64,000 nt of DNA from Stenotrophomonas sp. ZAC14D1_NAIMI4_1 (GTDB taxonomy: Bacteria > Pseudomonadota > Gammaproteobacteria > Xanthomonadales > Xanthomonadaceae): contig NZ_CP026001.1 of the NCBI RefSeq assembly GCF_003086775.1, forward strand, positions 310,001-374,000, given 5' to 3'. The notes under the pieces were generated by a model that was not told where the DNA came from, searched no databases, and was given only the letters and a program-made list of their open reading frames with translations. Position numbers and translations under genes: made by a program. This document shows, piece after piece, positions 5,665 to 31,941 of the stretch (the first letter of the stretch is position 1; each line of letters begins with the position of its first letter).

Positions 5665-6420
5665 TCACGGGGCGCTGTTTGAGCCTTCACTCGTGCCAGT
5701 GAGCCACTTTTGGGCCAGGCGAGGAGTCACAGTGGTTGCCAAGCCCTGCAGGTAGGTAAACCCATAGGGAATCCTATCCATCTCGAGCGAGACCAGCACT
5801 TTCTCGGCCCTGCCGCGCGCAGCCTTGACCAGCGAAGCCGCCGGGTACACGGCAAGTGATGTGCCTATGACAAGGACCTTTGCTGCGGTGGATACATGCC
5901 ATCGCGCCTCATCCATGTGCTGCGTTTCTTCCCCGAACCAGACAATGTCAGGCCTGAGCTGCGTCCCGTCTTCGCACAGCTGCCCAAGCGAAATCGAGGA
6001 GTCCTCGATACGGTAGCGCTTCGGGCTGTCCGACGTGCTACGCGCATAGGCAAGTTGGCCATGTAGATGAATCACGTTGCTGGAGCCCGCGCGCTCGTGA
6101 AGCTCATCGACGTTCTGGGTAATCACGACTACATCAAAGGCCGATTCCAAGGACGCGATCGCGGAGTGTGCGGCATTTGGCAACGCGTTCCATGCCTTCA
6201 GGCGACGCTCGTTGTAAAAGGCCAAGACGGCTTCTGGGCGAAGCCTCCAGCCCTCAGGGCTGGCCACCTCCTGCCACGAATAATTGTTCCAGAGGCCGTG
6301 CGAATCGCGGAATGTAGGCAAGCCGCTTTCCGCGCTCAGGCCGGACCCAGAGAGAACAACTACTTTGTTGGGTACTACGTCGGGAATCATTCGGGCGCTC
6401 GTCATCTGGCAACCTGGCAT
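5665..6420 (-). CDS. Sir2-family NAD-dependent deacylase lacking zinc cysteines
   Basis: Sirtuin motifs are clear: the NAD loop GSGLSAESGLPTFRD, the TQNVDELHERAG segment, the catalytic His in IHLHG, the WFGE substrate cleft and the VIGTSLAVYPAA adenine pocket. The small zinc module that normally has four cysteines has only one here (LGQLCEDGTQLRP), a feature of a known zinc-less bacterial subgroup. It could deacylate proteins or act on NAD or ADP-ribose. Of three in-frame ATGs (6420, 6405, 6390) the last fits the usual family N-terminus best. It lies right beside the tRNA, in DNA of lower GC than the backbone. Confidence 0.85.
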   Translation of the reverse strand: MPGCQMTSARMIPDVVPNKVVVLSGSGLSAESGLPTFRDSHGLWNNYSWQEVASPEGWRLRPEAVLAFYNERRLKAWNALPNAAHSAIASLESAFDVVVITQNVDELHERAGSSNVIHLHGQLAYARSTSDSPKRYRIEDSSISLGQLCEDGTQLRPDIVWFGEETQHMDEARWHVSTAAKVLVIGTSLAVYPAASLVKAARGRAEKVLVSLEMDRIPYGFTYLQGLATTVTPRLAQKWLTGTSEGSNSAP

Positions 6421-6576
6421 CTGCGCCCGGCTATACGAAACATCTATAGCGCATCGCTCGATGGGCCAATTCGTTGCTACGGCTTGATCTTAGGTCGACC
6501 GAGTGCAGGACAACAAGTGGGAGTAAAGCCGGAGCAACTGCTGACCAAAGCGCGCCGGATAATGGGCTGCTGACGA

Positions 6577-7185
6577 TCAGGTGGAAGACAAATCCTGATC
6601 GCCAAGCGCCTTGGCACAGAATTCCGCGGTACGCAGCACGCCGCCTGCGCCTTGATACTTGTCGTCGGCGCAGAATCGCTGTGTGATGACGCGCCCCATT
6701 CGGCCATTGAAGCTAACGTCCGAAGTATTCAGAAACACTTGTGCGCTGATACTGGCACCGTCGGCGATGGATTCCACAACGGGCTGGTCAACCGAGAGAT
6801 GCAGGACATTGAGGTCGAGCATCTTGTCTCCGGATTTCGCTTCAATCCGGAGGATGAAGGTGATGCCGTGGTCAGCCGGAATCAGCTTCTTCTTTGCCAT
6901 CTTTTTGAGTACATAATTTGCGTCCCGAGCGAATCCAGGAAGGATGTCCGACTCGCCCCACCCGTCGCCCTTGAGCGTTATCACAAGTCGCGGTGGCGTA
7001 GCGAACGGTTGGGTATCGACGGCGACAACTTTCGGATGCAGCTTCATTACGGCCGCCGGATCTATCGAGTTCTCGCGCGATGTGTCATCAGCTTCGGAAG
7101 CTGCTACCTCGCTGTCCTGAGCCGCCGGGGGTGGGGAACATCCGGCGAGACCAACCAACGCCACAATCAGGAATATCTCCTTCAT
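6577..7185 (-). CDS. putative lipoprotein, unknown function
   Basis: The 202-residue product starts with a lipoprotein signal (MKEIFLIVALVGLAGC, lipobox LAGC), followed by an Ala/Glu/Asp-rich linker. A mature domain contains VITLKGDGWGESDILPGF and ILRIEAKSGDKMLDLNVLHL. ATG at 7185 has TAGGAG ideally spaced upstream, so the TTG six bases earlier is rejected. Base composition is below that of the backbone. It is on the same strand as the sirtuin gene but about 150 bp away. I do not recognise the family. Confidence 0.72.
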   Translation of the reverse strand: MKEIFLIVALVGLAGCSPPPAAQDSEVAASEADDTSRENSIDPAAVMKLHPKVVAVDTQPFATPPRLVITLKGDGWGESDILPGFARDANYVLKKMAKKKLIPADHGITFILRIEAKSGDKMLDLNVLHLSVDQPVVESIADGASISAQVFLNTSDVSFNGRMGRVITQRFCADDKYQGAGGVLRTAEFCAKALGDQDLSST

Positions 7186-7617
7186 TTCCAACTCCTATCT
7201 ACAGTGGTGAATTCAGTATGCGGTAGCGCGCCAAATGACATCCGACGTCCTGACATGAAGCGCGTGAGCGCTTGCGAGAATGAACAGCGGCGGATGCCAT
7301 GCTCCGTAACCGTGGACAATGCCGCACGCCCTAAGTGCGACCAGCATGTGAGCGATATACAAGGAAAGCAGTACTGCCGAGAGCGGGGAACCCCTCAATC
7401 CGAGCGCCACGCAGTCGTACCGTGCTCCCCAGCGTGCCTCTCCTACCAATTAGCAGTATCGCTGTGCTGCCTCCATTGGTGGAGTGAACATCATCCTGCC
7501 GCTTCAGGCACACTGGCGTCACGCACGTAGGCTCGCAGCTTCAATCAAGCTTACGTCCCAACATCGAGCGAGAGTCCCTCAGAATGAGCCCGGCACTAGT
7601 AATTTTGCAGGCTTGAC
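7186..7617. other. non-coding, AT-richer stretch
   Basis: No convincing gene is seen. A 78-codon minus-strand frame (7213-7449) starts only with TTG and has no ribosome site. The lower GC and absence of genes fit a decayed part of an acquired segment. Confidence 0.5.
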
Positions 7618-7757
7618 GACGCCGTCTATGGCTGGACGGATCACGCCAATTCCGACACTGCAGCCGCTCGGCCAGGGGCGGATGCGTCATGCCATTCGAC
7701 AAAGACAGTCAGACCCGGGACATCGAGCGCGCTCGCGTACTGGCGGGCCTGCTCTGA
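7618..7757 (+). pseudogene. remnant of a HigB/RelE-type toxin
   Basis: Just before the antitoxin gene, the last 22 codons before a TGA (ATG at 7689) read DKDSQTRDIERAR, matching the usual C-terminus of the RelE-like toxin (GGDKSSQARDIxxA) that precedes this antitoxin family. In a different frame slightly upstream, GRITPIPTLQPLG resembles the toxin's ARIxxRIxRLxxGN helix. The central part of about 95 codons is not present in any single frame, so the toxin appears deleted or frameshifted. Homology is inferred by eye. Confidence 0.5.
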
Positions 7758-7807
7758 TTCCACACTTTTCCACACGCTGCACGTGACAACAGACAAGGCA
7801 GGCTGCC

Positions 7808-8185
7808 ATGAAAAACACACTGGAACTGCATGACTGGGACGCGGCCGAACACCTGCACGACGACCAGGACATCGTTCACTTCATTGAAGCTGCGCTCGAG
7901 GAAGCGCCCGACGATGCAGCCTTCATCGCATCGGTGCTGGGGGTGGTGGCACGGGCGCGCAACATTGCTGATCTTGCACGCACGACCGGTATCGCCCGCG
8001 AAACCCTGTACAAGATGCTGCGTGGTGAAGGAAATCCCACCCTGGGCAATCTCAGCAAGCTGGCAAAGTCGCTGGGGTTCCGGCTGAGCCTTGTGCCGAT
8101 CAAGAGCGACGGCAAGCCGACCAAGCCCGCACGCCGGCCCGCACGCAAGGCGGCCAAGACGCCGGCGGCAAAGAGCGCCTGCTGA
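7808..8185 (+). CDS. HigA-like antitoxin (putative addiction module antidote, XRE-type)
   Basis: This 125-residue protein resembles the HTH antidote family that pairs with RelE-like killers. A short acidic N-terminus (LHDWDAAEHLHDDQDIVHFIEAALEE) is followed by a helix-turn-helix (NIADLARTTGIARETLYKMLRGEGNPTLGNLSKLAKSLG). The tail is basic and Lys/Pro/Ala-rich, which is longer than usual and H1-like. AGGCAGG precedes the ATG. The toxin that should lie directly upstream survives only as a remnant, so this is likely an orphan antitoxin, perhaps kept as a DNA-binding regulator. Confidence 0.8.
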   Translation: MKNTLELHDWDAAEHLHDDQDIVHFIEAALEEAPDDAAFIASVLGVVARARNIADLARTTGIARETLYKMLRGEGNPTLGNLSKLAKSLGFRLSLVPIKSDGKPTKPARRPARKAAKTPAAKSAC

Positions 8186-8271
8186 TCCTTGCAGGATTCC
8201 CCCAGCCGCCTATTCAGTTGAGCCCGCCAGATTCGTCGCATGATGGGCCCGGTCTGCAACGGATGACGGAC

Positions 8272-9507
8272 ATGGCACGGAACTGGATTGTGATGGGGGA
8301 CGTTACCTCCAGCGGCGGTCGGGTGATCACCGCCTCGGGGGACACCGATGTTGCCGGCAAGGGCGTCGCACGTATCGGGGACAAGGCAACCTGCCCAAGT
8401 CTGCATAAAGGCGTCTTCGCGATTGTCGAAGGCGATGCCACGCTGATGGTCGATGGCCAGCCGGTTGCCTTGCATGGCAGCGCGCTTGCCTGTGGCTGCC
8501 GGGTGTTGTCCAGCCAGCAGTCCGTGGTGCATGTCACCGGCGGTGGCGGTGGCGGTGGCGGTGCGGGCGCGGCCGCGGGCGGTGCAGGCGCAAGCTCAGG
8601 TGCCGCCGGCAAGGTCGCCGCCATCGTGGGCGCCGTGGCGCCGCTCGCCAGCAAGGTGCTGCCTGCGTATGACCAGGCGGTCCGCTTCGTCGGCTCGCAG
8701 GGCACACCGTTGGCGAATGTGCCGTACACGCTGCACCTGGCCGATGGCCAGTCCATCAACGGCACCACCAATGAACAGGGCGAAACGGCACGCGTGTCAT
8801 CCGGCCAGAGCCAGCCCATCGCGCGTGCCGAGCTGCATCCACCCGAGCAGCCGACGGGCTGCTGCGCACGCACGTCGCCGGCCAGCGCCGACGCCAAGGA
8901 GGTCTTCGAGCTTGATGGGGTGATGACCACCTCCGATGAAATGGGCACCTCGGTCGTGCCGGTGAGTGCGCCGGGCCATGAGCGCAGCCTGACCCCGGGC
9001 GAGATCGAGATGGCACGGCTGGTGTTCGGCAATGCAGTCGACTACAGCAGCGTAAAGGTCCACAACCACGGCTATTGGCTGTTTTTCGGCTTCCAGGACA
9101 AGAACACCGCTGTTACCCCGAACGGCGAAATGTACTTCCCCAAAGGCATCTACCTCGATGACTTCTCCGCCGACAGCATCGGTAACCAGCAGTTCTTCAT
9201 CCACGAGATGACGCATGTCTGGCAGTACCAGCTCGGCTACAACGTCAAACTCGTGCGCGGGCCGAGGCCGGGCATGAGCTATGACTACGTGCTGGATGAA
9301 ACGCGCCTGTTCCACGACTACAACATGGAGGCGCAGGGTGACATGCTGGCCGATTACTTCCTCGTCACCTTCCGTGGCTCACAGTCGCGCATGAACAACA
9401 CCCGATATCGCGCGGTGGCCGGCATCGGCGCACAGCTGGAACGCACGCTTTCCCCGTTCCTTGCCGACCGCAGCAGCAAGGACAACCTGCCGAGGACAAC
9501 CCGATGA
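8272..9507 (+). CDS. PAAR protein with C-terminal zincin-like domain (probable T6SS effector)
   Basis: Residues 1-90 form a PAAR repeat domain (VGDVTSSGGRVITASGDT, GDKATC, DGQPVALHG, SALACGC) that would sharpen a type VI secretion spike tip. After a Gly-rich hinge (about 90-130) comes a small beta domain (about 145-190). The C-terminal half has a metalloprotease-like HEMTHVWQYQLGY motif (His at about 311) and a later YNMEAQGDMLADYF segment that may supply a ligand, as in Vgr-related zincins. Start: ATG 8263 or 8272; the latter matches the PAAR N-terminus. Its 3' end overlaps a lipoprotein gene by 4 bp, an effector-immunity arrangement. No T6SS core genes are in the window. Confidence 0.82.
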   Translation: MARNWIVMGDVTSSGGRVITASGDTDVAGKGVARIGDKATCPSLHKGVFAIVEGDATLMVDGQPVALHGSALACGCRVLSSQQSVVHVTGGGGGGGGAGAAAGGAGASSGAAGKVAAIVGAVAPLASKVLPAYDQAVRFVGSQGTPLANVPYTLHLADGQSINGTTNEQGETARVSSGQSQPIARAELHPPEQPTGCCARTSPASADAKEVFELDGVMTTSDEMGTSVVPVSAPGHERSLTPGEIEMARLVFGNAVDYSSVKVHNHGYWLFFGFQDKNTAVTPNGEMYFPKGIYLDDFSADSIGNQQFFIHEMTHVWQYQLGYNVKLVRGPRPGMSYDYVLDETRLFHDYNMEAQGDMLADYFLVTFRGSQSRMNNTRYRAVAGIGAQLERTLSPFLADRSSKDNLPRTTR

Positions 9508-18386: not shown

Positions 18387-20048
18387 GTGAATCCGATGCG
18401 CGTGTTGCTGCTGTCGTCCTGCCTCTTCGTCGGGGGCCTGGCCCATGCGGCCAACGACCTGCCCGGCGGCGGCATCGATCCGCAGGCACTGTCGCGCCAC
18501 GTGCGGGTGCTGGCCTCGGACGAGTTCGAGGGCCGCGCACCGGCCAGCGCAGGCGAAGAACGCACCGTGCAGTACCTCATCGAGCAGTTCCGCAGCTACG
18601 GCCTGCAGCCCGGTGGTGCCGATGGCAGCTGGGTGCAGCCGGTGCCGCTGGTGCGTGCGCAGCTGGATGGCCCGGCCAAGGCCAGCCTGCAGCTGAAGAA
18701 GGGCAAGCGCACGCTGGCCAACGGCGTGGACGTGACGCTGCAGAGCCTGCAGCCGCGCAAGCGCGTGCAGATCAACAACGCGCCGCTGGTGTTCGTCGGC
18801 TACGGCATCGATGCACCCGAGCGCCAGTGGAACGATTACAAGGACGTGGACCTGCACGGCAAGATCGCCGTGGTGCTGATCAACGACGCTGATTTCGAAG
18901 CCGATGCACCGGGCGCGTTCGACGGCAAGGCAGTGACCTACTACGGCCGCTGGACCTACAAGTTCGAGGAAGCCGCACGCCGCGGCGCCGAGGGCGTGCT
19001 GATCGTGCACGAGACCGCGCCGGCCGCCTACGGCTGGGCCACGGTGAAGAGCTCGGGCACCTCGCCGCTGTTCGACATCGAACGCGGCCAGGCCGAAGCG
19101 ATGGCCCAGCACACGCCGCTGCGTGGCTGGATGCAGCGCGAACTGGCCGAGGCGATCTTCGCCGACGCGGGCCTGGATTTCGACGCCGAGAAGCGCAAGG
19201 CCATGCAGGCCGATTTCCGCCCGGTGGTGCTGGACAACGCGAAGCTGAGCGTGGATTTCGCACTGAAGCGCGAGCAGGTGGTGACCCGCAACGTGGTGGC
19301 CAAGCTGCCCGGTGGCGAGCATGGCGATGAGGCCGTGATCTTCTCGGCGCACTGGGATGCCTTCGGTATCGGCCAGCCCGATGCCAAGGGTGACCGCATC
19401 CGCCACGGGGCCATCGACAACGCCACCGGCGTGGCCACCGTGCTGGAACTGGGCCGCGTGTTCGCGGCCGGCCCGCAGCCGCAGCGCAGCCTGTACTTCG
19501 TGGCCCTGACTGCGGAGGAGAAGGGCCTGCTGGGTGCAAGCTACTACGCCGCGCACCCGCTGGCGCCGCTGGAAAAGACCGCCGCCGTGCTGAACATCGA
19601 AATGTTCAGCCCGGACGGTGCGACGCGTGACATCGCGTCGTGGGGCAAGGGCCGGGTGTCGCTGGAAGGCGACCTGGAACGCGTGGCCAAGGCCCGTGGC
19701 CGCAGCTACAGCCCCGACCCGAACCTGGAAGCGGGCTTCTTCTACCGCGCCGACCACTTCGCCTTCGCCCGCCTGGGCGTGCCGGCCATCACCATCGGCC
19801 CGGGCCTGGACAAGCTGGACGGCGGCGTCGAGGCCGGCCGCGCGCTGCGCGAGAAGTACTTCGCCGACTGCTACCACCAGGCCTGCGATGCCTGGACCCC
19901 GAGCTGGGACCCGGCTGGCCACGCTGCCGACACCCTGCTGGTCTACGACCTGGGCGCCGAGCTGGCCAACAGCCGCCGCTGGCCGCAGTGGGAGAAGGCG
20001 TCGGAATTCCACGGTGCCCGCGAGAAGAGCGACGCCGCCCGTCGTTGA
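18387..20048 (+). CDS. M28-family zinc aminopeptidase, exported
   Basis: This 553-residue protein starts with a signal peptide (MRVLLLSSCLFVGGLAHA, from ATG 18396; GTG 18387 adds three residues). It has a PA-type inserted domain (about 130-270, VFVGYGIDAPERQWNDYKDVDLHGKIAVVL) and the M28 core. Metal and catalytic motifs are HWDAFG, GAIDNATGVATVLELGR and LTAEEKGLLGASYYA, with a distal YRADHFAFARLG carrying the last His. It probably trims N-terminal residues from peptides in the periplasm or outside. A SMAG cluster follows 5 bp after the stop. Confidence 0.88.
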   Translation: MNPMRVLLLSSCLFVGGLAHAANDLPGGGIDPQALSRHVRVLASDEFEGRAPASAGEERTVQYLIEQFRSYGLQPGGADGSWVQPVPLVRAQLDGPAKASLQLKKGKRTLANGVDVTLQSLQPRKRVQINNAPLVFVGYGIDAPERQWNDYKDVDLHGKIAVVLINDADFEADAPGAFDGKAVTYYGRWTYKFEEAARRGAEGVLIVHETAPAAYGWATVKSSGTSPLFDIERGQAEAMAQHTPLRGWMQRELAEAIFADAGLDFDAEKRKAMQADFRPVVLDNAKLSVDFALKREQVVTRNVVAKLPGGEHGDEAVIFSAHWDAFGIGQPDAKGDRIRHGAIDNATGVATVLELGRVFAAGPQPQRSLYFVALTAEEKGLLGASYYAAHPLAPLEKTAAVLNIEMFSPDGATRDIASWGKGRVSLEGDLERVAKARGRSYSPDPNLEAGFFYRADHFAFARLGVPAITIGPGLDKLDGGVEAGRALREKYFADCYHQACDAWTPSWDPAGHAADTLLVYDLGAELANSRRWPQWEKASEFHGAREKSDAARR

Positions 20049-20052
20049 GGGG

Positions 20053-20222
20053 GTAGTGCCGGCCGCTGGCCGGCAATCCGGTGCGACGACAGAGGTAGAG
20101 TCGACCGTTGGTCGACTACCCGCGCAGCGCGGGGTTCTTGGCAGCCTGATCGAAGAGCAGTCGACTAACAGTCGACTCTACCGGTCGCCGGTCGCCGGTT
20201 GCCGGCCAGCGGCCGGCACTAC
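20053..20222. repeat. nested SMAG/REP cluster
   Basis: Four palindromes are nested. The outer pair (20053-20075 and 20200-20222) is of the TGCCGGCC type in inverted orientation. The inner pair (20095-20119 and 20159-20181) is of the GAGTCGACC type, also inverted. The spacer of the inner pair, read on the minus strand, again has CTGCTCTTC and CGCGCTGCGCG. The whole 170 bp can fold into one long branched hairpin between the convergent M28 and membrane-protein genes. Confidence 0.87.
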
Positions 20223-20572
20223 CGTCGCTGGCGCAACAGCCTCCACGCGCCCCAGCCGCTGGCAGCAAGCGCGGCCAGATAGCACGCCACCATCGTGCGC
20301 ATGCCCATCGGGTGCAGTTGCCCGCCGCGCGGGTGGGTACTCATCGCCAGGGAGCTGTGGCCGCTGCCCAGGTCCACCGCCAGCTGCAGCGCCAGCGCGG
20401 CACCGAACACCAGCAATGCCACCCCGAAGCCGATGCGCGGCCACGCGGCCTGCGCACTGGGGCGGCGCAGCAGCCAGGCCACTGCCGTGGCTGCGGCCAG
20501 CACCACCGCCATCCACATCAGCGGTGACGCCGGAGACGCAGCAGCCACCGGCATTGCACCGGTGGCTGCCAT
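20219..20572 (-). CDS. small membrane protein of unknown function
   Basis: The 117-residue product has about three hydrophobic segments (LMWMAVVLAAATAVAWLL, IGFGVALLVFGAALALQLAVDL and MVACYLAALAASGWGAW) and a His/Gly-containing loop (STHPRGGQLHPMG). It starts 13 bp after the stop of the symporter gene on the same strand, with TAAGG as its ribosome site, so it is likely co-transcribed. Its stop codon (20219-20221) is formed by the GTAG of a SMAG repeat. No family recognised. Confidence 0.6.
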   Translation of the reverse strand: MAATGAMPVAAASPASPLMWMAVVLAAATAVAWLLRRPSAQAAWPRIGFGVALLVFGAALALQLAVDLGSGHSSLAMSTHPRGGQLHPMGMRTMVACYLAALAASGWGAWRLLRQRR

Positions 20573-20585
20573 CAACACAGCGCCC

Positions 20586-21920
20586 TTACTTGCGGGTGCC
20601 GTCGAGCCAGTTCGGGCCCTTGTTGGTGAGGAAGAAGACATAGACCACCAACGATACCGCGATCGTGGCGGTGACGTAGATGGCGAACCAGTCAACGTGG
20701 CCGGTCTTCAGCGCGCCCTGGTACAGCAGCGGCGCGGTGCCACCGAACAGCGAGTTGGCCAGCGCATAGCCCAGGCCCACGCCCAGCGCACGGATGTGGG
20801 TGGGGAACAGTTCGGCCTTCACCACCGCGTTGATGGAGGTGTAGCCGGTGAGGATGACAAAGCCCAGCGCCAGGGTGAGGAAGGCGAGGGTGGCATCGTG
20901 CTGGTGCGGCAGCTGGGTGATCAGGTACCAGCTGTACAGCACGCCGCCCACGCCGAAGAACACCAGCAGGCTCTTGCGGCCGATGATGTCCGACAGCCAG
21001 CCACCGATCGGCTGCAGCACCATCAGGAACGTCAGCACGCCCAGGTTGACCAGGGTGGCGGTCATCGGATCATCGGCGGCGAAGGCGCTCTGGATCATCT
21101 TCGGGCCGTTCACCGAGTAGGTGTAGAAGGCAATGGTGCCGCCGGCGGTGATCAGGAAGCACAGCAGCAGCGGGCGCCACTGGTGCACGAACAGCTCGTA
21201 CATCGAGCCGGACTTCTTCGCCTTGCCTTCGCGTGCGGCCTCGATCGACGACTCTTCCATCGTCTCGTCCATGCCCCGGCGCAGCCAGAACACCACGACT
21301 GCGGCGATGCCACCGATGCCGAACGCGATGCGCCAGCCGAACTCGGAGATTTCCGGCTTGCCCCAGAAATTCAGCATCAGGAACAGCGTGAGCTGCGCCA
21401 GCACGTGGCCACCGACCAGGGTGACGTAGTGGAACGAGGACAGGAAGCCGCGGCGGCCGGGAATGGCAGCCTCGGACATGTAGGTGGCGCTGGCGCCGTA
21501 CTCGCCGCCGGTGGCAAAGCCCTGCAGCAGGCGCGCGAACAGCAGGATGATCGCCGCCCAGATGCCGATGCTGGCCGCCGTGGGCGTGATGGCGATGAGG
21601 AAGGAGCAGACGGCCATCAGGGTGACCGACACGGTAAGCGCCAGGCGGCGGCCGTGGCGGTCGGCGAAGCGGCCGAAGAACCAGGCGCCGATCGGGCGCA
21701 TCAGGAAGGTGGCGGCGAAGATCGCCCACACGTACATCGTGGAGTTCTTGTCTTCAGGCGAGAAGAACTGCGATTCGAAGTACACGGCGAACACCGAGTA
21801 CACGTAGACGTCATACCACTCCACCAGGTTGCCGGCGGAGCCTTTGAGGGTATTGGAGATCGAGCGGCGCAGCGCGGCGCCGTCGGTGCTGGGGACAGCA
21901 GGTTGGGACGTGGTGCTCAT
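20586..21920 (-). CDS. MHS-family (KgtP-like) metabolite:H+ symporter
   Basis: A 444-residue twelve-helix MFS protein of the metabolite:H+ symporter group. Diagnostic strings are GNLVEWYDVYVYSVFAVYF at the first helix, the MFS loop GRFADRHGRRLAL, RLLQGFATGGEYGASATYMSE, WRIAFGIGGIAAVVVFWLRR and HIRALGVGLGYALANSLFGGTAP. The resemblance is strongest to alpha-ketoglutarate permease, so a dicarboxylate or 2-oxoglutarate substrate is likely, though not proven. ATG at 21920 fits the family; the frame further upstream lacks a start signal. Confidence 0.88.
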   Translation of the reverse strand: MSTTSQPAVPSTDGAALRRSISNTLKGSAGNLVEWYDVYVYSVFAVYFESQFFSPEDKNSTMYVWAIFAATFLMRPIGAWFFGRFADRHGRRLALTVSVTLMAVCSFLIAITPTAASIGIWAAIILLFARLLQGFATGGEYGASATYMSEAAIPGRRGFLSSFHYVTLVGGHVLAQLTLFLMLNFWGKPEISEFGWRIAFGIGGIAAVVVFWLRRGMDETMEESSIEAAREGKAKKSGSMYELFVHQWRPLLLCFLITAGGTIAFYTYSVNGPKMIQSAFAADDPMTATLVNLGVLTFLMVLQPIGGWLSDIIGRKSLLVFFGVGGVLYSWYLITQLPHQHDATLAFLTLALGFVILTGYTSINAVVKAELFPTHIRALGVGLGYALANSLFGGTAPLLYQGALKTGHVDWFAIYVTATIAVSLVVYVFFLTNKGPNWLDGTRK

Positions 21921-22142
21921 CTGGGTGAGGATCCTCGATGCGGTGCTTCCATGCGGGAAAGATCGGTGCCAGGGGCGCGCGTGGGCGCTGCCAGCCAGCC
22001 TCCTAGGTACTGCATCCCACGTCAACGCCGGGTGCCGGAGGGGCGGGCAGGGCATGGGGACCGCACAGGGTGACAGCGTGAGGGGGAAGGGACCATAGCT
22101 AGATCGTCGTACGCGGTGGTCCCCATTTGTCACATGATCGAC

Positions 22143-23264
22143 TCAATGAAGCGCTGAAGCCGAACCGTCGATCGGAGAAACGATGGCGTCTCTGAAGTTT
22201 CTCCTGGCCCAGGTCCTCAAAATGGCTGCACTCGCTGCCAGAAGTACCACCGACACCAGAAGCTGCCACTTCGGCACATCCACGTAGAGCAGGCGGATCG
22301 GCATTGCCGCCATTGAAGTGAACGGAAAGAGCGACATGGCCTGCATGAATAGGCCCTCCGGGGCCTTTAGCCCGCCAAAGCCGATCATGATCATGGTCAA
22401 AGGAAAGGCTGCGAGGGTGTTGCGGAATGCTGAATGGGGTGACCGGATTGCGGTAGCGCACGCGGCAAAGAACCAGTTCCACAGCATCAGGCCCAGGAAA
22501 CAGAATGCCAACAGGCCAACTACGAGGCCCCAACTCCGGCCGGAAATGTCTGCGAACATACTGGTCGATTCCGACATGAGCATCCAGGCAAAAGCCGCGT
22601 AAACGCCATAGATTGTGATCGTCTTCATTCCATGGCAGATCGACGCTGCAACTTTGCAGTCGAGCCAGAAGCCCGGCGGAGAGGCACTGAGGATCATTTC
22701 TGTCACATGAGCAAAGCGCTCACTGAGCAAGCCCTGAAACAACATGCCCAGGCAACCGAGAATGGCAAGTGTGGTCAGTACAACCATGCTGATCGAAATA
22801 GCGGTGAGTGATGAGTTCGGGAGAGCCGGTACTCCGAAGAGATCCACTACCCTGAGTGATGCCGGTGACTCAGCATGCCGCAGCTGGTCGGCGGAAACTC
22901 CGAGAGCCTGAAGCGAGTGCTGACGATGAAGCGAATCGAGGCTGTGTTGCAACTCCGCAATCCAGCCCGGCGCCTGTGCGATTCGGAGTACGTAGTCACC
23001 GGACTCCATCGATAGCGTTGGCTGTCCATTAGTGGCGGTATCGCCCTTGGTGTTGGCGAATTGGAAGCGTCCCTCATTCATTCCGGCCACCGGAGTTCCT
23101 CCGGCAGAAATCTGGATGGTGGTCGCGGCCTCCTTCGCCAGAATGGCGTCGCCTCCCAGTTTCACCAAAGCAATCACTGCCAGCAGGAGCAGACCAACCA
23201 GCTCGCCTCGAATATCCAGGTGCCGTCTGAACTCAAAGCCGCTGACCCTGGCGTAGTGGCTCAT
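22143..23264 (-). CDS. ABC-2-type transporter permease of the peptide-like cassette
   Basis: This is the last gene of a six-gene minus-strand set. It is a 373-residue membrane protein with an N-terminal helix (GELVGLLLLAVIALVKLGG), a periplasmic domain of about 130 residues and then five or six helices (SSLTAISISMVVLTTLAILGCLGMLF, TITIYGVYAAFAWML, WGLVVGLLAFCFLGLMLW). The layout matches NatB/ABC-2 permeases with a long first extracytoplasmic loop. ATG at 23264 overlaps the ATPase stop (ATGA); in-frame ATGs at 23270 and 23285 are possible. The GC content is visibly below that of the backbone. Confidence 0.78.
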   Translation of the reverse strand: MSHYARVSGFEFRRHLDIRGELVGLLLLAVIALVKLGGDAILAKEAATTIQISAGGTPVAGMNEGRFQFANTKGDTATNGQPTLSMESGDYVLRIAQAPGWIAELQHSLDSLHRQHSLQALGVSADQLRHAESPASLRVVDLFGVPALPNSSLTAISISMVVLTTLAILGCLGMLFQGLLSERFAHVTEMILSASPPGFWLDCKVAASICHGMKTITIYGVYAAFAWMLMSESTSMFADISGRSWGLVVGLLAFCFLGLMLWNWFFAACATAIRSPHSAFRNTLAAFPLTMIMIGFGGLKAPEGLFMQAMSLFPFTSMAAMPIRLLYVDVPKWQLLVSVVLLAASAAILRTWARRNFRDAIVSPIDGSASALH

Positions 23265-23998
23265 GCGCATGCTCTGTCCTCCCATGACGTCGATGCCTGT
23301 GACGGGGGATCGCCGGTGTCATCCCGGTGATGAGCGCCCGCGGGCAGATGAAGGTCCTCAGCTTTGGCAGGCTGGAGTTGCGCGTTCTTGAGCACCAGGA
23401 TCCTTCCACAGAATCGCTGCAGAAGTTCAATGTGATGCGCTGAAAGGACCACCGCTGCGCCTTGACGCGCTGCGGCCGAGATCAGGTCGACGACCGCAAC
23501 CTGATTGGCCGGATCCAGTCCTGAAAAAGGCTCATCCAGTACAAGTACCTTCGGTGAATGAAGCATGCAGGCTGCAACCTGAAGCTTCTGCAGGTTGCCC
23601 TTTGACAGGCTGGAAACCCGGTGTGAAGCACGATCTAGAAGCCCGATCTTGCCCAGCCAAAGGTCACGTGCGCGGACAGCATCCGACCTCGTCATGCCTC
23701 TCATGGCAGACCAGAACTCCAGTGACCGGCCAACGGTAACCTCGGGGAACAGGCTCCGGGACTCTGGAAGATAGCCGATGTCACACCATGGCGCCCGCGC
23801 TCCGTTTTCACTCCCAGCAACTGAGACGACGCCGGAATCGGCCGGGATGAGGTTGCAGAGGACGCGGAACAGCGTCGTCTTGCCGACACCATTGGCCCCT
23901 ATGATTCCGACGATTTGTCCAGCATCGACCTGCATTTCCAGGCCATGCAGGACTACGCGTGATCCGTAATTTTTGCAAAGGCGTTCAGCGTGCAGCAT
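23261..23998 (-). CDS. ABC transporter ATPase of the peptide-like cassette
   Basis: A 245-residue nucleotide-binding subunit with Walker A GANGVGKTT, signature LSKGNLQKLQ (a diverged LSGGQ), Walker B VLVLDEP and switch His in LSAHHIELL. It is of the NatA/CcmA-like ABC-2 exporter type. GGGAG lies just before the ATG at 23998. The gene overlaps the preceding HEAT-repeat gene by 14 bp and the permease by 4 bp, so the exporter is made together with the upstream proteins, presumably to export a product or confer self-protection. Functional partnership is inferred. Confidence 0.85.
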   Translation of the reverse strand: MLHAERLCKNYGSRVVLHGLEMQVDAGQIVGIIGANGVGKTTLFRVLCNLIPADSGVVSVAGSENGARAPWCDIGYLPESRSLFPEVTVGRSLEFWSAMRGMTRSDAVRARDLWLGKIGLLDRASHRVSSLSKGNLQKLQVAACMLHSPKVLVLDEPFSGLDPANQVAVVDLISAAARQGAAVVLSAHHIELLQRFCGRILVLKNAQLQPAKAEDLHLPAGAHHRDDTGDPPSQASTSWEDRACA

Positions 23999-24911
23999 CT
24001 GAGGCTCCCTTCTCAATTCTCTCGGCAATTTGACGAGCCCTAGATTGCATGAAACGGCTGTGACGGTTCTCCACCATTGCGATCAACTGCATTGATGCCT
24101 CATGGCTGCGAGAATTTGCGACCAGTGCCTCCAAGGCAGCCATACGTACACGCTCCATTGGATGACATCGGAACACGTCTCTCAGCAGCTGCTGCGCCTC
24201 TCCATCCGCATCTCCGGCGGCAATCATGAACAGGGCGGATGCATTGGACCGATTGATGATCTGTGAGATCGTCCCTGTGCCAGGTTCAAATTCATACTGA
24301 TCCATGGTTACGCTTCTCAGGGAGTGCTCCATGATGTTGATGCTCACAGAAAACTCATCGGGTGCCATTTGCTGGTGTACATCCCTGAATGCCCTGTACA
24401 GAAGCACATTTCCCTTTTTCAACCGCGAGCGTTCGGTGAAGCGAAGATCCACGTTCTCGCCAGGAATTCCAGCCACCGAGGCGTAGTCGTACTCAAAGTA
24501 GTCGCTTTCGTATCCAGGTCCCTGGTAGCCAACCGTCAGAAAGTTGAAATTGTGATCATGCGGAACACCGTAGAAGAACGCCTGGGGGCCGCTCGCAGCA
24601 AGAATTTCGTCATTCTTCCCGGGCCAGAAGCACGCACGAATGAAGTAGCTCTGACCTGAAGACTGGGGGGCGTGAAGCATGATGACCTGTGGTGTGTAGT
24701 CGTTGTCGACCTGGATTTCCTTCGAATCCTTGAGCTCGGCGCAAATGGCATCGCTGAGAAATGTGCGGTTGTTTCCAAGCCTCTTGAGCATGGGGGCCAC
24801 CGCCATCATCGAGTGTTGGTCACGTGGATCGAATGACGATTGATCGAGGTGCTCCACAAGATCTGTCAGCGTGATCGAATCTGTAGACGGGTCTAATATC
24901 TGGATGGGCAT
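23985..24911 (-). CDS. HEAT-repeat protein with cupin-like core (second of two)
   Basis: 308 residues, no signal peptide. The middle contains a cupin-like string GVPHDHNFNFLTVGYQGPGY (potential metal His at HDH), followed by YFEYDYASVAG, VDLRFTERSRLKKGNVLLYRA and DVHQQM. The C-terminal part (about 210-300) has two or three HEAT-type helix pairs (HPMERVRMAALEALVANSRSH, EASMQLIAMVENRHSRFM). It is related in layout to the upstream gene, from which it is separated by 7 bp. No known function; possibly an enzyme or binding partner acting on the small peptides of the locus. Confidence 0.68.
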   Translation of the reverse strand: MPIQILDPSTDSITLTDLVEHLDQSSFDPRDQHSMMAVAPMLKRLGNNRTFLSDAICAELKDSKEIQVDNDYTPQVIMLHAPQSSGQSYFIRACFWPGKNDEILAASGPQAFFYGVPHDHNFNFLTVGYQGPGYESDYFEYDYASVAGIPGENVDLRFTERSRLKKGNVLLYRAFRDVHQQMAPDEFSVSINIMEHSLRSVTMDQYEFEPGTGTISQIINRSNASALFMIAAGDADGEAQQLLRDVFRCHPMERVRMAALEALVANSRSHEASMQLIAMVENRHSRFMQSRARQIAERIEKGASDAAR

Positions 24912-24918
24912 GGAATTT

Positions 24919-25869
24919 TCATCCTTGTTCCATTGAACGGGCCGCGAGGCTTCTTATCTCATCACTCGGATCGCCTTCTCTCATCTCCGACAGGCGAGTA
25001 GATGCTGATTTGGGGTCGACCTGGTAAAGCGCCCGGAGGGCATTCCAGCGCACGAACGTCGTCGGATGGTGGGATAAATCAAGAAGCGAACTTGCAGCTC
25101 CGCTACCCCCTAGCTGGGCAAGTGCCGTAGCGATGAGCTGGAGGCGGGAGTCAGTGATACTGGCTGCTGTGCAGCCGACCAGTTGGCTGGTCCTGAGGGA
25201 GAAGTGCTTGGTTGCTTCACATCTCGGCTGCGCGGCGAGGCAAATGATCATCGACGTGGGCGCATCTCCTTTAAGCAGGCGCATTCCCTGTCTACCACCC
25301 TCTAGAAACACGAAATCTCCTGATTGGGAGTTCCCGCTGGAGGGAGGGCCAAGTGCTGGCGCCGCTGCATCGTCGCACTCAACGGAGAATGTCTGGTGGC
25401 TGACATGCTCTGTCTGCGCGAACAGCACCAGAGAGTCCATCCCGATGATCGTGATCCCTGTCTCGGTGTCACCCTCTGGAGCTGCAATGAGCTGACGTGG
25501 CGGCCTGTGCATGTAGTGAATCTGCACGTGCTCGTCCTTGTAGACGACCATCCCCGCTAGAGGTTGCTTGACGAAGAACCGCCCGGGCGTTGTGTAGAGC
25601 GCGCTCTCAAGATGGTTCTGGCACTCTCTGCCGAAGTGCTGCTTCAAAGTCGGCAGATCGAACTCCCGACAGATGGATAGCATCAACTTACGATTCATCG
25701 CGACGGTGCCGTCGCCGCGGATACATTTGCTCCAGCCACGAATTCGATTCGCTTGGCCTGTCGCTTCAAGTGCGCTGAGGAGTGAGGTATTCCTTCCATG
25801 AGCAGTCTTCAGTTTCTGAAGCTGGGAAGGATCATCAGCCAGGTCAAGCATTTGCCTCGGACGTTCCAT
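24919..25869 (-). CDS. HEAT-repeat protein with cupin-like core (first of two)
   Basis: A 316-residue protein, MERPRQMLDLADDPSQLQKL, begins at ATG 25869 with GGAGG upstream; the longer frame to 25938 would overlap the peptide gene and has no ribosome site. The central part (MVVYKDEHVQIHYMHRPPRQ, ITIIGMDSLVLFAQTEHVSHQTFSVE) resembles the middle of the next gene's product. It ends in HEAT-like helices (SSLLDLSHHPTTFVRWNALRALYQVDP, DEIRSLAARSM). The pair looks like diverged paralogues. The role is unknown. Confidence 0.65.
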   Translation of the reverse strand: MERPRQMLDLADDPSQLQKLKTAHGRNTSLLSALEATGQANRIRGWSKCIRGDGTVAMNRKLMLSICREFDLPTLKQHFGRECQNHLESALYTTPGRFFVKQPLAGMVVYKDEHVQIHYMHRPPRQLIAAPEGDTETGITIIGMDSLVLFAQTEHVSHQTFSVECDDAAAPALGPPSSGNSQSGDFVFLEGGRQGMRLLKGDAPTSMIICLAAQPRCEATKHFSLRTSQLVGCTAASITDSRLQLIATALAQLGGSGAASSLLDLSHHPTTFVRWNALRALYQVDPKSASTRLSEMREGDPSDEIRSLAARSMEQG

Positions 25870-25886
25870 GCCGCCTCCAGTGCGGT

Positions 25887-25904
25887 GGGCCGGGAATCCG
25901 GCCC
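25887..25904 (-). promoter_or_regulatory. intercistronic hairpin between peptide genes and HEAT genes
   Basis: A perfect 7-bp stem GGGCCGG/CCGGCCC with a 4-nt loop sits in the 49-bp gap after the second peptide gene. No T-tract follows, so it is more likely an mRNA processing or partial attenuation point than a full terminator. Such a hairpin would let more peptide than downstream protein be made. Confidence 0.45.
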
Positions 25905-25918
25905 GCCGCCGATTTACT

Positions 25919-26062
25919 TCAAATCGGGTGAATGCCACGATTGATCAGGATGCCGACGACGACGCCAACTGCTGCGCAGCCAGCTCCCGTTGTCTCGATC
26001 AGGATGCATGAGCCATGCATGCCAACCGGGTGCTGTTGCCTCGGAAGTGCGGTGGGTTTCAT
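25919..26062 (-). CDS. small glycine-rich hydrophobic peptide (47 aa), cassette peptide 2
   Basis: A 47-codon frame: MKPTALPRQQHPVGMHGSC, then a hydrophobic glycine-zipper-like core (TGAGCAAVGVVVGILINRG) and IHPI. It has two cysteines (19, 29). GAGG lies 9 bp before the ATG and overlaps the TGA of peptide 1, so the two are translationally coupled. There is no double-glycine leader or Sec signal. It resembles a hydrophobic bacteriocin, a RiPP precursor or a membrane micro-protein. It is not homologous to anything I recognise. Support comes from the ribosome site, context and spacing, not from homology. Confidence 0.5.
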   Translation of the reverse strand: MKPTALPRQQHPVGMHGSCILIETTGAGCAAVGVVVGILINRGIHPI

Positions 26063-26073
26063 GTCTATATTCC

Positions 26074-26196
26074 TCATACGGGGAGAACGGCGATGACGAT
26101 TGCGACTGCAATCGTTACTGGTTCAATCGGCGAGCAGAGCATTGAAGTGCCAGCCAAACCCACGGCTGGGGTGAGGGGGAGCGGAATGCCATCCAT
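26074..26196 (-). CDS. small hydrophobic peptide (40 aa), cassette peptide 1
   Basis: A 40-codon frame: MDGIPLPLTPAVGLAGTSML, CSPIEP and a strongly hydrophobic end (VTIAVAIVIAVLPV). A near-ideal ribosome site (TAAGGAG, 7 bp before the ATG) supports it. It has one Cys, two acidic residues and no basic residue. It would be the first gene of the six-gene set ending with the ABC permease. The C-terminal helix could insert in a membrane or serve as a recognition end for processing. Function unknown; no family recognised. Confidence 0.5.
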   Translation of the reverse strand: MDGIPLPLTPAVGLAGTSMLCSPIEPVTIAVAIVIAVLPV

Positions 26197-26219
26197 TGGT
26201 TTCTCCTTACAGATCGGTG

Positions 26220-26237
26220 GCCCAACTCATGTTGGGC
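26220..26237. promoter_or_regulatory. palindrome upstream of the peptide genes
   Basis: A perfect inverted repeat GCCCAAC-N4-GTTGGGC lies about 24 bp before the peptide 1 start and 10 bp from its ribosome site. It could be an operator or a 5' leader hairpin. No clear promoter boxes could be assigned for this operon. Confidence 0.4.
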
Positions 26238-26427
26238 AGATCCGTTTTCAATGATCGCGAAGAAGGTTTTTATGACCTGGATCTCAGTTGCTGGAGCTCC
26301 GATAGAAAGCGTCATGCTTCGCTTGTGAATTCCGTACTCAGGGGAAGATCTCGCTCGGGTTTTAGCCCATGCGTGATGCCAGAAACTCTGATTGGGCCGT
26401 CGGCTTACGAGCTCACTTCCAGAACCG

Positions 26428-26459
26428 GGGTGATTTCCGTCACCCGAACCTTCTAGAAT
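26428..26459 (+). promoter_or_regulatory. promoter and operator candidate for the EamA operon
   Basis: TAGAAT (26454-26459) is a plausible -10 box 28 bp before the ATG at 26487. A palindrome GGGTGA-N6-TCACCC (26428-26445) sits over the -35 position, where a repressor or activator could bind. Confidence 0.4.
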
Positions 26460-26486
26460 CCGTTTTCCCCTGCCTGCTGGTGCGTC

Positions 26487-27392
26487 ATGTCGGCTTCCCC
26501 TGTTCCTTCTGCGGCTGCCCCCCGGGGTGGCCTTGTCGCGCTGGCGCTGCTGCTGGTCTACGTGGTCTGGGGCTCGACCTACCTGGGCATCGCCAAGGCC
26601 CTGCACGGCGGCGCGCTGCCGCTCACGATGGTGTCCGGCAGCCGCTTCATCATTGCCGGCGGCCTGATGTACCTGGCCCTGCGCCTGTTCTGGAAGATGC
26701 CGCGTCCGACCCTGCGGCAGTGGCGCAACCTGGTCATCATGGGCGTGACCATGCTGGTGCTGGGCAACGGCATGGTGGTGCTGGCAGAGCGCGAGGTCTC
26801 TTCAGGCCTGGCGGCCACGGCGGTGGCCTCGGTACCGCTGTGGATGGCGCTGTTCTCGGCGCTGCGCGGCCAGCACGCCAGCCGTGGTGAATGGCTGGGC
26901 ATCGCGGTGGGCTTCATCGGCGTGGTCTGGCTCAACGCTGGCAGCAGTCTGACCGCCTCGCCGACCGGGCTGGTGCTGCTGCTGATCGCGCCGATCGGCT
27001 GGGCCTTCGGCTCGGTGTGGGCGCGCGGGCTGGATCTGCCCGGCCCGTTCATGACCGCCGCCGGGCAGATGATCTGCGGCGGCGTGCTGCTGGTGCTGAT
27101 CGGCCTGGCGGTGGGCGAGCGCCCGACCACGCTGCCCGATACCAGCGGCCTGCTGGCCATGGCTTACCTGTGTGTCTTTGGTTCCATCGTGGCCTTCACC
27201 GCGTACGTCTGGTTGCTGCACAACGTGCGCCCGGCGCTGGCCGGCAGCTATGCGTACGTGAACCCGGTGATTGCGGTGCTGCTGGGTGCGGCACTGAACG
27301 GTGAGCATTTCGGCTGGCGCGACTTCCTGGCCATGGCGGTGATCCTGCTGGGCGTGGTGGTGCTGACCATGGCGCGGACCTGGAAGAAATGA
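26487..27392 (+). CDS. EamA/DMT-family exporter (YedA-like)
   Basis: A 301-residue membrane protein with ten hydrophobic segments in two EamA repeats (about 15-140 and 155-290). The first helix, LLVYVVWGSTYLGIAKAL, has the typical WGSTY motif, and the second repeat begins LVLLLIAPIGWAFGSVWARG. YVNPVIAVLLGAALNGE near the end is characteristic. It is closest to YedA-type drug/metabolite exporters. The substrate is not predictable. It overlaps the following rarD-like gene by 4 bp. Confidence 0.87.
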   Translation: MSASPVPSAAAPRGGLVALALLLVYVVWGSTYLGIAKALHGGALPLTMVSGSRFIIAGGLMYLALRLFWKMPRPTLRQWRNLVIMGVTMLVLGNGMVVLAEREVSSGLAATAVASVPLWMALFSALRGQHASRGEWLGIAVGFIGVVWLNAGSSLTASPTGLVLLLIAPIGWAFGSVWARGLDLPGPFMTAAGQMICGGVLLVLIGLAVGERPTTLPDTSGLLAMAYLCVFGSIVAFTAYVWLLHNVRPALAGSYAYVNPVIAVLLGAALNGEHFGWRDFLAMAVILLGVVVLTMARTWKK

Positions 27393-28288
27393 GCATGGAC
27401 GAGAAAGAACAACGCCGCGGGTTGCTGGTCACCGCCTCCACCTTCGTGCTGTGGGGGCTGGTGCCGGTGTACTGGCACCTGCTCAACGAGGTGCCCTCGT
27501 TCCAGATCATCGCCCACCGCATCATCTGGTCCACGGTGCTGGTGGTGGCATGGCTGCTGCTGAGCGCGCGCCTGGGCTGGTGGCAGAAGATCGCCGCGCA
27601 GCCACGCGCGCTGCCGATCCTGGCGGTATCCAGCCTGACCATCGCCTTCAACTGGGGCCTTTACATCTGGGCGGTCAACGCCGGGCATGTGATTGAAACC
27701 AGCCTGGGCTACTTCATCAATCCGCTGGTGAACGTGCTGCTGGGCGTGCTGGTGCTGAAGGAACGCCTGCGCCGCCTGCAGTGGGTGGCCGTGGCGATGG
27801 CCGCCGTGGGCGTGGCCTGGCTGACCATCGATGCCGGCACGCCGCCGTGGATCGCGCTGGGGCTGGCCTGCTCGTTCGGCCTGTACGGCCTGCTGCGCAA
27901 GCTGGTGTCGGTGGATCCGGTGGCCGGGCTGGGCGTGGAAAGCCTGTACCTGTTCCTGCCGGCGCTGGCGTTTGCGGTGTGGGCAGAGAACGGCCATGGC
28001 GGCGCGTTCTTCCATGGTTGGGGGTTGCGCAACGACCTGCTGCTGGTCTTCGGTGGCGTGGTCACCGCGGTGCCGCTGATCGGCTTCGCCTACGGGGTGA
28101 AGCGCATTCCGCTGTCGCTGGTCGGCATCCTGCAGTACATCGCGCCGAGCCTGCAGCTGCTGCTGGGCGTGTTCTTCTTCCACGAGGCATTCGACACCGG
28201 CAAGGCGATTGGTTTCGCGGTGATCTGGGCCGGGCTGGTGCTGTTCGTCGGCGAGAACGTGCGCGCGATGCGGGCGGCGAAGCGGTAA
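27389..28288 (+). CDS. rarD: RarD-type EamA transporter
   Basis: A 299-residue, ten-helix protein of the RarD branch of the DMT superfamily. It begins KEQRRGLLVTASTFVLWGLVPVYW and carries NWGLYIWAVNAGHVIETSLGYFINPLVNVLLG, the RarD hallmark, then FGLYGLLRK and the final IAPSLQLLLGVFFFHEAF. Named after the chloramphenicol-sensitivity protein of Pseudomonas; the actual substrate is unknown. The ATG lies inside the stop of the preceding EamA gene, so both are made from one transcript. Confidence 0.9.
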   Translation: MSMDEKEQRRGLLVTASTFVLWGLVPVYWHLLNEVPSFQIIAHRIIWSTVLVVAWLLLSARLGWWQKIAAQPRALPILAVSSLTIAFNWGLYIWAVNAGHVIETSLGYFINPLVNVLLGVLVLKERLRRLQWVAVAMAAVGVAWLTIDAGTPPWIALGLACSFGLYGLLRKLVSVDPVAGLGVESLYLFLPALAFAVWAENGHGGAFFHGWGLRNDLLLVFGGVVTAVPLIGFAYGVKRIPLSLVGILQYIAPSLQLLLGVFFFHEAFDTGKAIGFAVIWAGLVLFVGENVRAMRAAKR

Positions 28289-31230: not shown

Positions 31231-31497
31231 CCGTGAAATCTCGTGTTTCAGAAAAAAACATGCGCCCGTTCTGTGGGCGCGTGGGGTACTGCAAACCAAC
31301 GTGGGGGGCGGGATTCTAGAGTGTTTTCATTCGTAACTGTTTGTCCCTGCGTGTTTCATCGCGTTGAAGATGAATCGCAACCAACAATCCACAGGATGGC
31401 TGTGCGCAGCGTCACGCGCGTGCTGTTTTCGATGCGCAGAGGCACCGATAACGGCCGCAATCGCATGATCTGTAATGCGCAGGGTGTGCGTGCGTTC
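31231..31497. other. TonB-receptor upstream region
   Basis: Intergenic DNA with AT-richer patches (31315-31350) that probably holds the receptor promoter, read leftwards. No gene and no definite -35/-10 pair were identified. Confidence 0.4.
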
Positions 31498-31869
31498 ATC
31501 CACGCATGGCGTGGATCTACTGGAATGCGGACACCCGCGCGATCGACAGGCGCATCGGTAGATCCACGCCATGCGTGGACAAGGCACGGGTAGATCCACG
31601 CCATGCGTGGACAAGGCACGGGTAGATCCACGCCATGCGTGGATGAAGCACCGGTAGATCCACGCCATGCGTGGATAGGGCACCAGTAGATCCACGCCAT
31701 GCGTGGATGAAGCACCGGTAGATCCACGCCATGCGTGGATGAGGCACCAGTAGATCCACGCCATGCGTGGATGAGGCATCGGTAGATCCACGCCATGCGT
31801 GGATGAAGCACCGGTAGATCCACGCCATGCGTGGATAGGGCACCAGTAGATCCACGCCATGCTTGGATG
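31498..31869. repeat. tandem array of a 32-bp REP unit (10 direct copies plus 1 inverted)
   Basis: Starting at 31558, a 32-bp unit repeats head-to-tail with exact period (31558, 31590, 31622, 31654, 31686, 31718, 31750, 31782, 31814, 31846). Each has a GTAG foot and the palindrome ATCCACGC-CAT-GCGTGGAT, then a 9-bp variable tail (such as GAAGCACCG, AGGGCACCA or GAGGCACCA). The last copy is degenerate (CATGCTTGGAT). A complete inverted copy is at 31498-31520. It differs in period and sequence from the paired SMAG elements elsewhere in the window and is not a CRISPR array because there are no unique spacers. Confidence 0.9.
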
Positions 31870-31876
31870 ACGACCA

Positions 31877-31908
31877 ACAAAAAAGGGCGAAGCCTTCGCT
31901 TCGCCCTT
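31877..31908 (-). terminator. Rho-independent terminator of the MacB-like operon
   Basis: Stem AAGGGCGAAGC/GCTTCGCCCTT with a 4-nt loop, followed by TTTTTT on the minus strand, about 35 bp after the last permease gene. Confidence 0.88.
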
Positions 31909-31941
31909 CCACATCCATCACCACATACACGTGTGCGCTGA

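Follow-up and report, generated by a model that had tools for sequence, protein, structure and literature searches.

Why do two very short open reading frames (ORFs) stand in front of two HEAT/cupin-like proteins and an ABC-2 transporter? This question is raised by a cassette of six genes on the minus strand of positions 22143-26196 in a 64,000-nucleotide stretch of the genome of Stenotrophomonas sp. ZAC14D1_NAIMI4_1 (hereafter, the window). All six genes are present, in the order pepA, pepB, HEAT1, HEAT2, ABC ATPase and ABC-2 permease. We propose, with a probability of about 0.6, that the locus is a peptide system of an undescribed class that resembles those of ribosomally synthesized and post-translationally modified peptides (RiPPs). 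In this proposal, the HEAT1/HEAT2 pair serves to bind the peptides and to modify them by oxidation, and the role of the ABC-2 pair is either export or protection against the peptides. The genes of the cassette are as follows.

pepA, 26074..26196, minus strand: peptide of 40 amino acids (aa), EPV subtype, with the tail IEPVTIAVAIVIAVLPV; ORF with a TAAGGAG site 5' of the ATG
pepB, 25919..26062, minus strand: peptide of 47 aa, GGxxC-like subtype, TGAGCAAVGVVVGILI; AGGA 5' of the start
HEAT1, 24919..25869, minus strand: predicted thiol-dioxygenase fold without the metal His residues, and C-terminal HEAT repeats
HEAT2, 23985..24911, minus strand: predicted thiol-dioxygenase fold (residues ~9-222) with invariant H118, H120 and H179, and C-terminal HEAT repeats
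ABC transporter ATPase (DrrA-like), 23261..23998, minus strand: PF00005 (ABC_tran) at 5e-25
ABC-2 permease, 22143..23264, minus strand: PF12698 (ABC2_membrane_3) at 3.9e-13

An earlier note on this DNA had described the six genes as tightly packed on one strand, and this is borne out. The gaps are 49 bp between pepB and HEAT1 and 7 bp between HEAT1 and HEAT2. The overlaps at the ATPase and permease starts are 14 and 4 bp with the ATGs that we chose: the ATPase start (~23998) is our choice of ATG and the permease start (~23264) was taken from the 4-bp ATGA overlap. An alternative ATG of pepB at 26077 would give 52 aa; the same codon encodes Ile in the corresponding Stenotrophomonas locus L097.

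The peptide genes and their family

The earlier note had also proposed that the two ORFs, of 40 and 47 codons with ribosome-binding sites, are genes. Among the 1070 six-frame ORF segments of the window, a hidden Markov model (HMM) that was trained without Xanthomonadales ranked pepB top (E 2.3e-7) and pepA second (E 0.0076), and the next segment had E 0.26. Furthermore, changes in both ORFs are biased to synonymous positions. For pepB, the window and the related locus L098 differ by 22.5 synonymous and 12.5 non-synonymous differences (pS 0.61, pN 0.12), and for pepA by 18.2 and 14.8 (pS 0.53, pN 0.17). In sub-ranges that were picked by eye once the sequences were known, the synonymous and non-synonymous differences from L098 were 17 and 2 (pepB codons 12-45) and 9 and 3 (pepA codons 19-40). 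The pepA genes of the window and L097 differ by 5 synonymous and 0 non-synonymous changes. On the strength of this ranking and of the bias toward synonymous change, we rejected an origin of pepA and pepB as chance ORFs. Thus, as judged from these sequence comparisons, pepA and pepB are real, conserved genes. Neither has an above-cut-off match in Pfam, NCBIfam or PADLOC. In the protein database, pepB has 4 relatives, and the two named ones are Stenotrophomonas entries labelled 'hypothetical protein'.

We took the best 80 of 218 places with HEAT2-gene relatives from named genomes as loci. The peptide HMM was seeded with ten short ORFs upstream of HEAT1 and iterated over the 27152 six-frame ORF segments of these 80 loci. 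The final round gave 101 matches at E<1, and 100 of them lie on the same strand as the HEAT1/HEAT2 pair and upstream of it. Shuffled segments gave 0, 0, 0, 0 and 1 matches over the five rounds. Of the 80 loci, 78 encode at least one peptide of the family just upstream of the HEAT pair, 76 of them with E<0.01. The matches in L022 (from a planctomycete metagenome-assembled genome) and L041 are weak ones alone (E 0.35 and 0.53); L038 and L044 have no match, and in both the contig ends just before HEAT1. Outside the HMM training, 17 further loci were inspected: 14 have a peptide and three (L117, L118 and L119) have none, and L141 is not independent. The earlier note had named homologous HEAT/ABC loci that lack upstream short ORFs as one of the findings that would overturn it; its proposal passes this test. 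The peptide-bearing loci are mostly from alpha- and gammaproteobacteria.

The peptides are 37-59 aa in length, with starts set by script, and share the motif LPxLxTxVGxxG[ST]. The best-kept columns, one Leu (96 of 102 rows) and two Gly (90/102 and 83/102), all precede a hydrophobic tail. The C-terminal half holds the most hydrophobic 15-mer in 99 of 100 peptides, and the Kyte-Doolittle mean of this 15-mer exceeds 1.6 in 72% of peptides, as compared with 42% after shuffling. We named the tail subtypes by hand as EVGGxxC (A), EPV (B), DD...VYVYD (C), GDD-F (D) and HTPVVAGQ (E). Among close Stenotrophomonas relatives, the tail is more conserved than the N-terminal part. The three peptides encoded in L010 resemble one another at the N-terminus and have tails of two types, and two peptides of differing subtypes lie side by side in Stenotrophomonas, Lysobacter and Alteromonas. 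Tandem arrays precede a single HEAT pair in L083 (six near-copies, 7653-8554) and L075 (five peptides, four of them identical, 8194-8902).

Divergent HEAT pairs occur at other Stenotrophomonas sites (L101, L102 at two places, L103, L104 and L105). In front of all of these except L101, a short upstream ORF carries a hydrophobic stretch. These ORFs may be further peptide subtypes.

HEAT1, HEAT2 and their match to the peptides

The earlier description of the two larger proteins as HEAT/cupin-like gains precision from structure prediction: the cupin part of both resembles a thiol dioxygenase (cysteine-dioxygenase-like fold), and the HEAT repeats are C-terminal. HEAT1 and HEAT2 are paralogues. In Pfam, HEAT1 matches HEAT_2 at 3e-7, and its matches in Pfam and PADLOC are to generic HEAT alone. 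HEAT2 matches HEAT_2 at 0.0073, which is below the cut-off of that model, and has no match above cut-off in these databases. Thiol dioxygenases are iron-dependent enzymes that oxidise sulfur and are generally defined by three His ligands. In HEAT2, H118, H120 and H179 are invariant in 51 of 51 sequences, and the motif PHDHNF with DVHxQ is kept whole across alpha- and gammaproteobacteria, whereas the cupin part of HEAT1 has no conserved His. H118, H120 and H179 are the putative metal ligands of HEAT2. HEAT2 is presumed to be a metal-dependent modifying enzyme, and HEAT1 presumably its peptide-binding partner.

A sequence-level link between HEAT2 and cysteine dioxygenase (CDO) was sought with a Pfam model and with a profile, and none was found. 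Therefore, the enzymatic class proposed for HEAT2 rests on the fold and the three His residues. The HEAT2 profile gave four weak, partial matches to transcription-factor domains among solved-structure sequences (best E 0.0027), which we took as chance. An apparent HEAT1-HEAT2 fusion in L057, L058 and L079 was not retained, because long alternative frames probably account for it: the coordinates place HEAT1 of L058 in a different frame, the verdict on L057 follows from its resemblance to L058, and L079 was left unchecked. The closest named relatives of HEAT2 are from Stenotrophomonas. Several HEAT2 relatives (P0001, P0007, P0017, P0028, P0042 and others) are labelled 'transposase' in public records.

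HEAT2 lineages track the peptide subtype next to them, and this holds even where one genome has two copies. On a HEAT2 tree of 84 rows, 80 of which were labelled, the five peptide groups need 4 changes, which is the minimum; shuffled labels need 38.4. The labels are hand-made patterns. The group AB (window, L006, L007, L010 and L012) was set by hand, the second pairs of L009 and L023 were assigned to the HTPVVAGQ type by eye, and the four rows that lack a clear subtype were left uncounted. Six genomes possess two adjacent pairs (L008, L025, L042 and L076 by pattern, L009 and L023 by eye label). In these genomes, the two HEAT2 proteins do not group together: that of the first pair lies among the type A rows and that of the second pair in another group.

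Insertion site, exporters and possible regulation signals

The cassette lies between two transporter genes, and a potential hairpin lies within it.

MFS transporter gene, 20586..21921, minus strand: left edge of the insertion site, PF00083/PF07690
EamA-family transporter gene, 26487..27392, plus strand: right edge of the insertion site, PF00892
Strong hairpin in the 49-bp pepB-HEAT1 gap, 25882..25909, minus strand: 12-pair stem, fold z -2.6

The EamA stretch was searched in 31 genomes, and 20 came back as loci. In 16 of these 20 Stenotrophomonas loci, EamA has the MFS gene as its immediate neighbour; in 3 (including the window) HEAT1 is there, and 1 has neither. Because MFS adjoins EamA directly in 16 of 20, the cassette is an insertion at a conserved site that is mostly empty. 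At this site, the window shares the full cassette with L097, L098 and L099. In L100, a peptide and the HEAT pair lie beside the same EamA gene, and the ABC and MFS genes were not found in the fetched stretch. The lower GC content that had been pointed out for the cassette is confirmed (0.568 in 22143-26196, 0.678 in the remaining window): among 300 sliding windows of 4054 bp, GC is equally low in 2, and both overlap the cassette.

HEAT2 is present in 10 of 91 genomes of the genus and in 15 of 398 genomes of the phylum. In the family richest in HEAT2, which is likely the Sphingomonas family, it is present in 87 of 249 genomes and in 43 of the 96 genera sampled. The frequency of the module in this family makes a useful function there probable.

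The neighbourhood gene calls are rough, and domains were tested on one representative per recurring family. The ABC-2 pair lies downstream of HEAT2 in Stenotrophomonas, Tahibacter, Lysobacter, Alteromonas halophila (L012), a plasmid of A. stellipolaris (L142) and Thalassotalea (L030); the permease is under the Pfam cut-off in L030 and L010. The full order of EPV peptide, GGxxC-like peptide, HEAT1, HEAT2, ATPase and permease recurs in L012 and on the plasmid L142. Other Alteromonadales have MacAB-like sets together with LytS/LytTR and Yip1 genes downstream, and some Sphingomonas have a one-piece ABC protein and MacAB-like genes. Thus, the ABC-2 transporter that the earlier note gave as the partner of the locus is not a constant partner: other loci have adjacent MacAB-like genes, a one-piece ABC protein or no recognised exporter. 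Because the exporter elsewhere differs or is not adjacent, the defining unit is the peptide, HEAT1 and HEAT2. Sphingosinicella-type loci have an ECF sigma gene upstream (tested in L011), and LuxR-type genes occur in L022 and L030. In Novosphingobium/Erythrobacter-type loci (L068 and others), the module is consistently found between thioesterase genes and ruvX, with no recognised adjacent exporter.

In the 60 nt past the last peptide, fold z is below -2 in 27 of 79 sequences, as compared with 22 of 142 control gene ends. Folding at this position is consistent with attenuation between the peptide and enzyme genes but does not establish it, and the hairpin is a possible attenuator or processing site; it has no T run on the coding strand. 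Terminator-like sites (4 in the region, 3.4 expected) are as a class not above chance, sigma-70-like promoters in the region are not above the shuffled expectation, and Rfam gave nothing at the gathering threshold in 20000-28000.

Two further features of the window, which lies on a single contig of 4.70 Mb, were observed. At 6001-8000, GC falls a second time clearly below that of the neighbouring sequence (0.572-0.590). Tandem coding-like repeats (MAWIY..HAWRGST..THGVDLPV units in overlapping frames), perhaps a repeat array, lie at 31327-31914.

Proposed mechanism, rival explanations and known systems

We propose the following mechanism. The products of pepA and pepB would be precursors: their N-terminal part, around LPxL...VGxxG[ST], would serve for recognition, and their hydrophobic C-terminal part would be the core. 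HEAT1 and HEAT2 would recognise the N-terminal motif, with the HEAT repeats as a possible surface for binding the peptide or a partner. HEAT2 may be a metal-dependent oxidative enzyme on a thiol-dioxygenase fold that modifies the peptide, and HEAT1 a catalytically dead paralogue that helps to bind and position it. The adjacent ABC-2 transporter would export the modified, membrane-seeking peptides and may, in addition, serve for self-protection; in relatives, adjacent MacAB-like or one-piece ABC exporters may act instead or additionally.

Several results weigh against this proposal. Its main weakness is that the chemistry cannot be named, because no residue of the core is universal. Cys, the residue that thiol chemistry needs, occurs in only 53 of 100 peptides and is thereby ruled out as a universal target. 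HEAT2 does not match the CDO_I (PF05995) Pfam model; against a CDO profile, hhalign gave E 0.16 over 14 columns and aligned unrelated parts, the profile being a narrow one of 18 sequences from related genomes. There is no leader peptidase among the six genes, and a housekeeping protease could act. An adjacent exporter was not recognised in many Sphingomonadales loci, within the limits of the rough gene calls. On the side of the peptide family, the HMM rounds after round 0 were trained solely on matches near HEAT2 and are biased to that position; the unfiltered round 0 gave 52 matches at E<0.01, of which 47 lie in the expected band and the other 5 were not singly examined. The EPV-type peptides of L012 and L142 were missed by the HMM and found by listing ORFs. 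The short ORFs before the divergent pairs L101-L105 are not matched by the HMM, and none in L101 is convincing. Common descent can partly explain why HEAT2 tracks the peptide subtype, and we count the hand-made subtype labels and by-eye placements against this matching.

These points leave room for other explanations. The HEAT pair might be a chaperone or escort that hands unmodified hydrophobic peptides to the exporter or the membrane, in which case the peptides would be unmodified two-peptide bacteriocins or signals. The hydrophobic tails, the HEAT repeats of both proteins, the loss of the His set from HEAT1, the lack of a universal modifiable residue, the DrrAB-like ABC pair and the pairing of differing subtypes in Stenotrophomonas, Lysobacter and Alteromonas are all consistent with an escort. 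However, the three invariant His of HEAT2 and its PHDHNF and DVHxQ motif point to catalysis or, at a minimum, to binding of a metal, and we consider an escort unlikely, while taking it seriously. Plant cysteine oxidases and ADO act in oxygen or redox sensing via an N-terminal Cys. By analogy, the HEAT pair could serve in signalling or regulation, such as the sensing of oxygen or redox state, and the peptides could act as small membrane proteins, with no exported product. This seems improbable to us, since no peptide of the set starts with Met-Cys, and the near-identical arrays of L083 and L075, the differing tails per locus and the adjacent exporters elsewhere suit a product better.

A third explanation makes the cassette a detoxification or immunity island, in which the ABC pair and the HEAT proteins act on foreign peptides and the short ORFs are regulatory leader peptides. 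It would agree with the island-like character, the lower GC, the site that is empty in 16 of 20 loci and the hairpin after the peptide genes. However, the sequence of the peptides, and not merely their length and position, is conserved over classes and matched to the HEAT2 lineage, and the peptides change with a synonymous bias; we hold this explanation to be very improbable. An anti-phage defence system was considered and rejected: PADLOC matched the ATPase only through its ATPase domain and HEAT1 only over one HEAT-ARM stretch, and gave nothing for the other four proteins.

Returning to the RiPP-like system with a modifying HEAT pair, we see an about even chance that it is a new class of ribosomal peptides. 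This class would be defined by a heteromeric pair of one active and one dead HEAT protein on a thiol-dioxygenase fold, would occur in alpha- and gammaproteobacteria and perhaps beyond, and would have lineage-matched subtypes and an oxidation not confined to cysteine. If so, both a class of peptides and a family of enzymes have been overlooked by annotation, and the question arises of how a thiol-dioxygenase fold acts on peptides of which nearly half are Cys-free, and why it needs a dead twin.

How does this system compare with known ones? With the thiol dioxygenases (cysteine dioxygenase, 3-mercaptopropionate dioxygenase, plant cysteine oxidase (PCO)/ADO), both HEAT proteins share the predicted CDO-type cupin fold, and HEAT2, unlike HEAT1, shares the three-His set. 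They differ in the C-terminal HEAT repeats, in the paired copies of which one is His-less, and in that HEAT2 has neither a CDO_I nor a CDO-profile sequence match. DrrAB-type ABC-2 exporters, including those for lantibiotic protection and PSM, likewise combine an ATPase and an ABC2_membrane_3 permease beside peptide genes, but the cassette ATPase is far under the NCBIfam cut-offs (92.7 versus 375 bits for PmtC), and scores 109.9 bits against the cut-off of 309.75 for the LanFEG-like lantibiotic-protection ABC (TIGR03740). Two-peptide class II bacteriocins also have two small hydrophobic peptides in tandem; in contrast to them, the locus has a conserved HEAT/dioxygenase-fold pair. A C39 peptidase, as expected for bacteriocins with a double-glycine leader, was not matched in the window's transporter or in the ABC proteins of L008 and L021. 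Among the matches listed in our literature searches, titles and abstract beginnings gave no account of a system of peptide and HEAT pair.

The closest comparison is with RiPP clusters. The type of enzyme pair sets the locus apart from them, being unnamed in the same titles and abstract beginnings, and a Pfam scan gave no RRE-type match among the six cassette proteins (no structure-based RRE search was made); the RRE domain is frequent in RiPP loci without being required. As in RiPP clusters, the short precursor genes come first in the operon, with several per locus in some, and a common N-terminal part is followed by varying tails, with enzyme-like genes and ABC exporters adjacent. Two hallmarks of RiPPs are found here: an encoded precursor linked to genes for possible modifying enzymes (78/80 loci, with synonymous bias), and a conserved N-terminal recognition part followed by a diverging core.

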